From Phymorhynchus buccinoides (lineage: Eukaryota > Mollusca > Gastropoda > Neogastropoda > Raphitomidae): DNA of 64,000 nucleotides. The stretch spans positions 59,185,644 through 59,249,643 of the forward strand of contig CM065693.1 in NCBI GenBank assembly GCA_017654935.2. The letters run 5' to 3'. Position numbers and translations under genes: made by a program. Below the pieces are notes generated by a model. It worked only from the letters and a program-made list of their open reading frames with translations, ran no database searches and was not told the origin of the DNA. Within the stretch, counting starts at the first letter, position 1, and every line of letters starts with the position of its first letter. Shown here piece after piece: positions 4,017 through 62,170 of the stretch.

Positions 4017-4105
4017 GCACGGAACACGGTGTGCAGGGGAGATCGCCATGGCAGCCAACAACTCGTTTTGCGGCGTGGGCATTGCCTACAACAGCAAGAT
4101 AGGGG
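4017..4105 (+). CDS. Proprotein convertase exon A (catalytic His)
   Basis: The exon opens after ctacag and ends before gtgagt. It begins with one base completing the previous codon, so the intron before it is phase 2, and it ends after one base of a Gly codon (phase 1). It encodes HGTRCAGEIAM, then AANNSFCGVGIAYNSKIGG. The His of HGT (codon 4018-4020) is the catalytic His of the S8 kexin family, and the nearby Cys is also conserved there. The IAM and YNSKxGG residues resemble PC1/3 more than furin. The last 19 exon bases and the donor are repeated downstream in the 46-bp array. Confidence 0.95.
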
Positions 4106-5350
4106 GTGAGTGAGGGGATAGCTATGGTAGGTTACAACAGCAAGATAGGGGGTGAGTGAGGGGATAGCCATGGTAGGTTACAACAGCAAGATAGGGGGTG
4201 AGTGAGGGGATAGCCATGGTAGGTTACAATAGTCAGATAGGGGGTGAGTGAGGGGATAGTCATGGTAGGTTACAATAGTCAGATAGGGGGTGAGTGAGGG
4301 GATAGCCATGGTAGGTTACAATAGTCAGATAGTGGGTGAGTGAGGGGATAGGCATGGTAGGTTACAATAGTCAGATACGGGGTGAGTGAGGGGATAGCCA
4401 TGGTAGGTTACAATAGTCAGATAGGGGGTGAGTGAGGGGATAGTCATGGTAGGTTACAATAGTCAGATAGGGGGTGAGTGAGGGGATAGCCATGGTAGGC
4501 TACAATAGTCAGATAGGGGGTGAGTGAGGGGATAGCCATGGTAGGCTACAATAGTCAGATAGGGGGTGAGTGAGGGGATAGCCATGGTAGGTTACAATAG
4601 TCAGATAGGGGGTGAGTGAGGGGATAGCCATGGTAGGTTACAATAGTCAGATAGGGGGTGAGTGAGGGGATAGCCATGGTAGGCTACAATAGTCAGATAG
4701 GGGGTGAGTGAGGGGATAGCCATGGTAGGTTACAATAGTCAGATAGGGGGTGAGTGAGGGGATAGCCATGGTAGGCTACAATAGTCAGATAGGGGGTGAG
4801 TGAGGGGATAGCCATGGTAGGTTACAATAGTCAGATAGGGGGTGAGTGAGGGGATAGTCATGGTAGGTTACAATAGTCAGATAGGGGGTGAGTGAGGGGA
4901 TAGCCATGGTAGGTTACAATAGTCAGATAGGGGGTGAGTGAGGGGATAGCCATGGTAGGCTACAATAGTCAGATAGGGGGTGAGTGAGGGGATAGCCATG
5001 GTAGGTTACAATAGTCAGATAGGGGGTGAGTGAGGGGATAGCCATGGTAGGCTACAATAGTCAGATAGGGGGTGAGTGAGGGGATAGCCATGGTAGGCTA
5101 CAATAGTCAGATAGGGGGTGAGTGAGGGGATAGCCATGGTAGGTTACAATAGTCAGATAGGGGGTGAGTGAGGGGATAGTCATGGTAGGTTACAATAGTC
5201 AGATAGGGGGTGAGTGAGGGGATAGCCATGGTAGGTTACAATAGTCAGATAGGGGGTGAGTGAGGGGATAGGCATGGTAGGTTACAATAGTCAGATAGGG
5301 GGTGAGTGAGGGGATAGCCATGGTAGCATACAACAACAAGATGGTGGTAA
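4087..5350 (+). repeat. 46-bp minisatellite seeded by exon A 5' splice site
   Basis: About 27 tandem units of 46 bp with core ggggtgagtgaggggata, then gccatggtaggttacaatagtcagata. The first two units downstream of the exon repeat its last 19 bases exactly (tacaacagcaagatagggg with the following gtgagtgagg, at 4087, 4133 and 4179). Later units mutate acagcaag to atagtcag but keep GGG-GTGAGT. Each unit therefore carries a copy of the true 5' splice site. The last, diverged unit near 5328-5352 reads caagatggtg followed by gtaagt, also a good donor. Confidence 0.93.
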
Positions 5351-6124
5351 GTAGGGACAACATTCCTCTCTGATAATGGTTCAAATACTCGTTACGTTTC
5401 ACTCTTTCTCCATGGCAACACGTTGATAGGCTAGCAATACCTTTGTGGTCAAAATACACTTTGCTGCTTTAGGCTCTTTCCCCATGGCAGCACAATGTCA
5501 CGTAGTATTACTGGAGCGTGAAAACGCTAGATAAACCAGCCGCGCGGCTCCAGTGACCTTGACCTTTGACCTTTGACCTTCATTTTCGAACTTGGCCTTG
5601 ATATCCTAGCTACCTATCCGCATGCAAAATTTGACAGAGTGAGAGCCTTAACATTTTTCATTTGGGGAAAGAGTGAGAAATGTTCACGTGGATTGCGTCC
5701 TTTAAAGACAGATAAAGGGAAGTAACAAGATGCTTTAATGCCGATGTTAAATCAAGATTTGTTTCCCTTGGACCTTTGTCTTCCAACATTAACAAGCATT
5801 GCGCAGGACATTTTCGGATCCAGTGACCTTGACCTCTGATCAATGACCTTCATCTTTGCACTTGGCCTAGATATCCTAACTACCTATGCACATGCAAACT
5901 GTGAGCCTCCCAGGTCCCTCTGTTAAAACATGACGGTGTTAACATCGACACACCATCTAGGATAGCCAGACAGCCAGGAACCAACAGACGGTCCTGAAAG
6001 CATTAGCCATCTTTCGCTGCCCAGCTGGGTAAATATAACGTGTCTATCACTGTGTTGCCATGGAGAAAGAAGGAAAAACATCAACATGTATTTTAACCAT
6101 AAGGAAAGGAGGTCATTTCAAACC
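5351..6124. other. Non-array stretch of intron A-B with diverged repeats
   Basis: No gene is recognisable. Two diverged direct copies of about 90 bp lie at 5549-5646 and 5819-5910. Both start tccagtgaccttgacc, pass through gatatccta and contain catgcaaa. A 27-bp inverted pair lies at 5403-5429 and 6044-6070, matching at 25 of 27 positions around ccatggcaacac. These could be remnants of a non-autonomous element, but no family can be named. Short open frames here have no recognisable homology. Confidence 0.5.
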
Positions 6125-60230: not shown

Positions 60231-60274
60231 AAAACCTTCAGCCCCCAGACCCCCGCCCTTGTTTGTAACAGCCC

Positions 60275-61440
60275 CTATGTAGTCAGTCAGGTCATCTCCC
60301 TGTGTGGTCAGTTAGGTCATCTCCCCATGTGGTCAGTCAGGTCACCTCCCTGTGTGGTCAGTTAGGTCATCTCTCCATGCGGTCAGTTAGGTCATCTCCC
60401 TGTGCGGTCAGTTAGGTCATCTCCCCGTGGGGTCAGTCAGGTAATCTCTCTGTGTGGTCAGTCAGCTCATCTCCCTGTGTGGTCAGTCAGCTCATCTCCC
60501 CGTGTGGTCAGTCAGGTCCTGTGGTCAGTCAGGTCATCTCCCCATGTGGTCAGTTAGGTCATCTCCCCATGTGGTCAGTCAGGTCATCTCCCCATGTGGT
60601 CAGTTAGGTCATCTCCCAGTGTGGTCAGTCAGGTCATCTCCCAGTGTGGTCAGTAAGGTCATCTCCCCGTGTGGTCAGTCAGGTCCTGTGGTCAGTTAGG
60701 TCATCGCCCCGTGTGGTCAGTAAGGTTCTGAGGTCAGATAGGTCATCTCCCCATGTGGTCAGTTAGGTCATCATTTTGTGTGTGGTCAGTGAGGTCATCT
60801 CCCCATGTGGTCAGTCAGGTCATCTCCCTATGTGGTCAGTCAGGTCATCTCTCCGTGTGGTCAGTTAGGTCATCTCCCCGTGTGGTCAGTAAGGTTCTGA
60901 GGTCAGATAGGTCATCTCCCCATGTGGTCAGTCAGGTCATCTCCCTATGTGGTCAGTCAGGTCATCTCTCCGTGTGGTCAGTTAGGTCATCTCCCCGTGT
61001 GGTCAGTTAGGTCATCTCCCAGTGTGGTCAGTCAGGTCATCACCCCATGTGGTCAGTCAGGTCATCTCCCTGTGTGGCCAGTCAGGTCATCTCTCCATGT
61101 GGTCAGTCAGGTCCTGTGGTCAGTCAGATCATCTCCCCATGTGGTCAGTTAGGTCATCTCCCCATGTGGTCAGTCAGGTCATCTCCCCGTGTGGTCAGTT
61201 AGGTCATCTCCCCATGTGGTCAGTTAGGTCATCTCCCCATGTGGTCAGTCAGGTCATCTCCCCGTGTGGTCAGTCAGGTCATCTCCCCGTGTGGTCAGTC
61301 ATGTCCTGTGGTCAGTCAGGTCATCTCCCTGTGCGGTCAGTTAGGTCATCTCCCCGTGGGGTCAGTCAGGTCATCTCCCTGTGTGGTCAGTCAGCTCATC
61401 TCCCTGTGTGGTCAGTCAGCTCATCTCCCTGTGTGGTCAA
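60275..61440 (+). repeat. 25-bp minisatellite, second copy
   Basis: Equivalent to 37245-38414, with nearly the same order of unit variants and a small difference near 60888 (gtaaggttctgaggtcagat instead of a plain unit). It carries exon F donor-like sites in each unit. Confidence 0.93.
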
Positions 61441-62170
61441 CCAAACCTCTACCACCACACACAAAACCTCTGCCACCACACACAAAACCTCTGAGGGCAC
61501 ACACAAAACCTCTGCCACCACACACAAAACCTCTGAGGGCACACACAAAACCTCTGCCACCACACACAAAACCTCTGCCACCACACACAAAACCTCTGCC
61601 ACCACACACAAAACCTCTGCCACCACACACAAAACCTCTGCCACCACACACAAAACCTCTGAGGGCACACACAAAACCTCTGCCACCACACACAAAACCT
61701 CTGCCACCACACACAAAACCTCTGCCACCACACACAAAACCTCTGAGGGCACACACAAAACCTCTGCCACCACACACAAAACCTCTGCCACCACACACAA
61801 AACCTCTGCCACCACACACAAAACCTCTGCCACCACACACAAAACCTCTGAGGGCACACACAAAACCTCTGCCACCACACACAAAACCTCTGAGGGCACA
61901 CACAAAACCTCTGCCACCACACACAAAACCTCTGCCACCACACACAAAACCTCTGCCACCACACACAAAACCTCTGCCACCACACACAAAACCTCTGCCA
62001 CCACACACAAAACCTCTGAGGGCACACACAAAACCTCTGCCACCACACACAAAACCTCTGCCACCACACACAAAACCTCTGCCACCACACACAAAACCTC
62101 TGCCACCACACACAAAACCTCTGCCGGCAATGTTCAATCCTCTGAAATGTGCAAATCCGCTGACAATTCT
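61441..62170. repeat. 21-bp minisatellite, second copy
   Basis: Equivalent to 38415-39171, one unit shorter in the first third and without the irregular ccatgtcacacac unit of the first copy (39036). It ends at about 62126, with the same aatgttcaatcctctg tail. Confidence 0.95.

Follow-up and report, generated by a model that had tools for sequence, protein, structure and literature searches.

Minisatellites carrying exon edges, of the lancelet mirage kind, in a proprotein convertase gene of a probable gastropod

A 64,000-nucleotide stretch of contig CM065693.1 (referred to hereafter as the window) carries part of a gene whose introns contain minisatellites, with units in places repeated more than 100 times and filling the introns. 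Six exons on the forward strand (A to F, Table 1), when joined, gave a single open frame of 330 residues (HGTRCAGE...VISPC). The predicted protein matched furin (1p8j, E=4e-95) and contained the S8 catalytic domain of the subtilase family (PF00082, E=4.3e-40), by which the gene is identified as a proprotein convertase, PC1/furin-like. The furin alignment reached into the P domain; PF01483 was not reported at E<=0.001 for this protein, which is partial and covers exons A to F only. A search with the same product returned 1349 protein matches, and the best 120 of the 1349 were headed by Ascaris convertases and included a Littorina convertase with 55% identity. In a tree of 26 rows picked from the convertase matches, the protein sat on a long branch and grouped with Littorina, Candidula and one more row (87/95, below the starred level). 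The next convertase exon, G, was sought with a profile from 73 homologs; nothing convincing was found within the window (best E 0.33), nor was the exon found in the flanks to ~100 kb in either direction, which include stretches of N.

The assembly (2.12 Gb, 3962 contigs) presents this locus more than once. The window contains it twice, at 18650-40342 (copy 1) and 40843-64000 (copy 2), and the two agree at 96.3% in a 17-kb alignment. Six non-array segments differed between them at 30 of 4023 aligned bases and by 25 small gaps. Beyond a further gap of 500 N, which lies ~8.6 kb past the window, the locus comes a third time as a partial copy that includes exon F. The copies are probably overlapping contig ends, perhaps haplotypes, that were placed in a row. 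Some arrays differ between copies 1 and 2, and contig errors rather than alleles may account for this. One stretch of copy 1, 35846-36434, is garbled and has a clean counterpart in copy 2; as judged from its k-mer origins, it is no real duplication.

The terminal 50 nt at either end of each exon served as exon edges (12 in all) and were aligned to introns and flanks, giving 84 pairs in copy 1 (seven introns or flanks) and 48 in copy 2 (four). To obtain p, the edge was dinucleotide-shuffled 400 times; where a pair scored <19, no shuffling was performed and p was set to 1. At p<=0.01, six of the 12 edges in copy 1 (A3', C3', D5', E3', F5' and F3') matched the intron on their own side, as compared with 2/72 pairs with other introns (Fisher, p=5.5e-5). 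Copy 2, which is not independent of copy 1, gave 4/7 own-side matches as compared with 1/41. Of the three off-target matches, two arose where the AG run of E3' aligned with AG-rich sequence, and one came from exon F letters within the garbled stretch. A separate run with 60 shuffles flagged the same six own-side pairs of copy 1, plus the garbled one. These results confirm the claim of an earlier note on this DNA that the introns carry minisatellites holding the edges of their own exons. The note was also right in assigning boundary capture to five of the six exons; exon E is the weakest of these, and neither edge of exon B gave a boundary copy when aligned to the introns. The repetition of the locus within the window is not mentioned in the note.

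The own-side matches covered 19/19 bases for A3' (p=0.0025), 47/50 for C3', 13/14 for the AG-rich E3' and 16/17 for F3' (p=0.0025 in copies 1 and 2). For D5' they covered 23/25 bases in copy 1 and 37/41 in copy 2, and for F5' 14/14 in copy 1 (p=0.005) and 48/49 in copy 2. Both types of edge are involved, namely the donors of A, C, E and F and the acceptors of D and F. A unit spans the boundary at A3', C3', E3', F5' and F3', judged by own-side matches that adjoin or include the site, and at D5' in a 98-bp duplicate.

Table 1. Positions in the window of the convertase exons, arrays, boundary duplicates and assembly features. TRF, Tandem Repeats Finder.
Feature	Position	Strand	Basis or remark
Exon A	4017..4105	+	frame and furin match
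46-bp array, overlaps exon A end	4087..5353	+	27 full units; A3' p=0.0025
Exon B	16116..16291	+	frame
Exon C	17420..17632	+	frame
175-bp pair, each holding 84 terminal bases of exon C with donor and AG run	17549..17898	+	TRF; 167/175 identical
40-bp array	20728..23423	+	67 units
Exon D, copy 1	23440..23540	+	frame
Exon E, copy 1	27087..27338	+	frame
31/45-bp array, starts 8 bases inside exon E	27331..35341	+	TRF
Acceptor-duplication remnant immediately 5' of exon F, copy 1	35346..35388	+	14/14 bases of exon F, p=0.005
Exon F, copy 1	35389..35549	+	frame
Garbled consensus, 51-bp array units interleaved with exon F surroundings	35846..36434	.	k-mer origin map against copy 2
51-bp array, copy 1, candidate copy of next exon's 5' edge with acceptor (TESYLL)	36435..37185	+	TRF; equalled by 49/1500 shuffled units
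25-bp array, copy 1	37247..38415	+	TRF; F3' 16/17 bases, p=0.0025
Assembly gap, 500 N	40343..40842	.	sequence from 18650 on recurs after gap
98-bp duplicate of array, acceptor and first 41 bases of exon D, copy 2	45340..45437	+	91/98 identical
Exon D, copy 2	45638..45738	+	0 differences to copy 1
Exon E, copy 2	49292..49543	+	0 differences to copy 1
Upstream duplicate of the 5' edge of exon F with preceding acceptor, copy 2	58535..58618	+	48/49 exonic bases
Exon F, copy 2	58619..58779	+	0 differences to copy 1
51-bp array, copy 2	58904..60216	+	25 full units
25-bp array, copy 2	60278..61439	+	TRF; F3' p=0.0025

The 46-bp unit in intron A-B consists of the last 19 bases of exon A followed by the donor and intron sequence, and is exact in the first three units. 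Exon A letters are found in the three exon-side units and mostly in the last unit, while the interior is made of a common derived version; in this array, the one examined for it, the interior is thus more homogenised than the end copies. A possible further piece of exon A in the unit, from the 5' half of the exon, scored 25, no higher than the shuffle maximum of 25. The 25-bp unit beyond exon F likewise carries 14-17 bases of the exon end plus the donor, and both units contain the exon edges that had been claimed for them, as do the 175-bp copies at exon C.

Three further claims of the earlier note stood in part. The 40-bp unit of intron C-D holds GGTACCATAGTGG, which is exon D bases 32-44 and not its outermost edge, and the left flank of the array matches exon D at 23/25 bases. 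The 98-bp duplicate of copy 2, which spans the acceptor, shows a route by which inner letters of exon D could have entered this unit; it is missing at the matching site of copy 1. The 31/45-bp unit is composed of AGAGAGAG, the donor and intron sequence, with two identical 31-mers abutting exon E at the start of the array; exon E bases are present as claimed, and amount to 8 bases of an AG run. At exon F, the acceptor duplication is clean in copy 2 and in the third copy past the window, whereas the exon F piece at 36157-36202 of copy 1 is not to be counted, because it lies in the garbled consensus. The 51-bp array may derive from the unseen next exon, although the case is weak: TESYLL is its sole basis, 49/1500 shuffled units scored equally, and chance hexapeptides of other arrays in the window scored as high.

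Taken together, the edges and units suggest, with a probability of roughly 85%, that the arrays are mirage-type minisatellites, that is, tandem duplications which spanned an exon-intron border, were tolerated with an intact exon-proximal site and then expanded. The segment duplicated head to tail would have comprised an exon edge, the GT or AG of the splice site and adjacent intron; present repeat units measure 25-175 bp. The extra copies would land on the intron side, and the working splice site would stay beside the exon. Because the exon retains a functional adjoining site, the message would be unchanged and the event nearly neutral, with no benefit required. Some duplications would then have grown into arrays, probably via unequal exchange or slippage. 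The exon-like end units of the 46-bp array and the 98-bp duplicate at exon D point to a direction from exon to intron.

The reading frames are consistent with use of the exon-proximal sites. An in-frame stop would follow if the second donor of exon A, C or E were used, or the first acceptor of exon F, or in copy 2 the inner acceptor of exon D; at F3', no stop was met in the 60 bases read past the donor, short of the array. If the gene is functional, the exon-side site should therefore be the productive one. The proposal of the earlier note, that short duplications across borders started the arrays while the exon-side site stayed usable, is supported.

Repeated splice sites might instead be useful, for instance in recruiting U1 or as a reserve of sites, and have been kept for that. 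GT is retained in 27/27 (A), 146/151 (E) and 45/47 (F) units and AG in 25/25 units of the 51-bp array, and in the 25-bp array only one of the 25 windows varies less than that of the donor. However, the donor window ranks 38/45 in the 45-bp array (41/45 in copy 2) and 11/46 in the 46-bp array, and young or homogenised arrays appear conserved regardless. Ranks of motif constancy per unit were mixed overall (11/46, 38/45, 41/45, 2/25, 2/25 and 7/51), and a donor motif test on 36 arrays without annotation was uninformative (5/36 at p<=0.05). The array copies thus appear to give no consistent sign of selection, and we regard a selected function as very unlikely.

Judged by the same kind of alignment, the boundary pattern extends to an adjacent, unrelated gene. 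A spatacsin gene lies on the minus strand in the downstream flank, with Spatacsin_C in 4/5 pieces and matches to chain 8yad_B that include the fifth. Five exons were defined and their edges aligned to six introns or flanks. Own-side matches were obtained for 4/10 edges (Xa5', Xc3', Xe3' and Xd3') as compared with 0/50 other pairs, and the inverted scores of the four matches were 13-18, which is background. Since exon Xd terminates in TGA, its array repeats a coding end and not a splice site. Arrays called by TRF also extend 5-7 bases into the 5' ends of Xc and Xd, below the sensitivity of the edge test. The proportion of 4/10 is no unbiased rate, because the exons were mostly spotted via their arrays and none were recovered for a middle stretch of the Spatacsin_C profile.

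Several observations weigh against boundary-spanning duplication. The E3' match depends on an AG run that matches other places too. In a less powerful test, with 15 consensus units aligned to whole exons, p<0.01 was reached for 2/15 (40_CD and 25_FG), and 46_AB gave p=0.053; array interiors have drifted or contain few exonic letters, which explains the low number. The relations described here are those of assembled sequence, and a stretch of copy 1 has been shown to be misassembled. Finally, the border excess over random placement vanishes with ancestral introns of ~300 bp, for which 3.9/15 arrays are expected to span a boundary by chance and 6 were observed (p=0.17-0.20). This would fit chance and ordinary intronic minisatellites, with arrays arising anywhere, many of them touching edges in short ancestral introns, and the boundary itself irrelevant; arrays without exon letters are indeed plentiful (9/15 in the placement test). 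With the present non-array length, in contrast, 1.1-1.5 are expected as compared with 6/15 observed (p=0.0003-0.002), and the outcome hinges on the ancestral intron length that is assumed. Chance similarity is excluded by the comparison of own and other introns in both the convertase and spatacsin genes, so that this alternative concerns why boundaries are involved and not the presence of exon letters. We consider it unlikely, while giving it some weight.

An artefact of assembly or consensus, in which collapsed or misplaced noisy reads made the boundary units, could draw on the garbled stretch, on the recurrence of the locus, as two or three copies, in contig ends that overlap, and on the 98-bp duplicate being in copy 2 only. 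Yet copy 2 again has the boundary units of E and F, and the third copy shares the acceptor duplication of F; exons D, E and F match exactly between the two copies in the window; and spatacsin, from other contig sequence, has the same pattern. Such an artefact therefore seems most improbable.

Boundary-spanning duplication may also have left a trace in the protein. The insertion PASMSERESVE (residues 269-279) falls on the junction of exons E and F (276.7), which has boundary duplications on both sides, at E3' and F5'. It is the sole insertion of more than one residue in the query, insertions being columns occupied in <30% of those listed homologs that have 400 residues or more. This is a single case, and chance may account for it. 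A broader proposal, which we advance tentatively and hold somewhat short of an even bet, is that in this gastropod lineage border-spanning duplication would be a leading and ongoing, genome-wide mode of intron growth. A large proportion of exon edges, and even a coding end at its stop codon, would have seeded arrays, and occasional exon-edge shifts would leave short in-frame insertions such as PASMSERESVE.

The remark in the earlier note that no named system is known is not supported: lancelet arrays of this kind go by the name of mirages, and repeated 5' splice sites occur in intron 7 of human F7. Mirages, in which the unit of a tandem repeat straddles an intron-exon boundary, have been described in lancelet Adh3, globins BflGb6 and BflGb9 and troponin C, with similar repeats in PGBD5 (PMC3087553, PMC3902484). 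As in the arrays here, 5' and 3' edges are involved, end copies escape homogenisation (here in the 46-bp array) and splice signals lie in the repeats; aberrant assembly of one haplotype also has its counterpart in the misassembly of copy 1. The present arrays reach ~150 units as compared with 3-6 in BflGb6, and they affect 6/12 edges of one convertase gene in a probable gastropod, with splice-site use predicted from reading frames, whereas mirages are from lancelets. Intron 7 of human F7 contains highly homologous 37-bp repeats, each with a 5' splice site, of which the most upstream is normally used (PMC6627357). Its first repeat holds the true donor, a likeness to the arrays here, but it has a single donor, no acceptors and a variable repeat number, whereas the present arrays run to kilobases. 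In intron gain by tandem duplication, a border-crossing duplication likewise supplies splice signals, but a new intron is created, whereas here existing introns lengthen (PMC4974935, PMC2812944). An abalone gene has a 27-bp intronic minisatellite (PMC6905558); no mirage case in a mollusc was found in the searched literature, which was mostly without subscription papers, and one may exist elsewhere. We conclude that the feature is real, of the mirage kind and probably in a new phylum. The high density in two adjacent genes, the array at a stop codon, the 11-residue E/F insertion and the gastropod setting are probably new.

Other sequences were noted in the introns. A nuclease-like block (matches named Asteroid/NYN) on the minus strand at 7502-9128 divides a 71-bp array in two, as if inserted; the named matches of the fragment 8638-9138 were Nucella, Elysia, Plakobranchus, Patella and Mytilus. 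A reverse-transcriptase fragment at 20028-20627 had few named matches, including Littorina, Babylonia, a sea urchin and a bacterial bin, and the unit of a 64-bp array (16548-17023) resembles part of a reverse transcriptase when read by eye. Together with the place of the convertase in the tree, the named matches of the fragments at 8638-9138 and 20028-20627 make a gastropod the probable source of this DNA. An AC dinucleotide run of 1.74 kb (14272-16012) ends ~100 bases upstream of exon B.

For annotation, these arrays are a warning, as those in this genome hold many false splice sites and exon fragments. A little-known lancelet oddity is carried to a probable mollusc, where it is dense and present in two neighbouring, unrelated genes. 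This makes testable the lengthening of introns, the choice of splice site among dozens of copies and the addition of residues at exon junctions.
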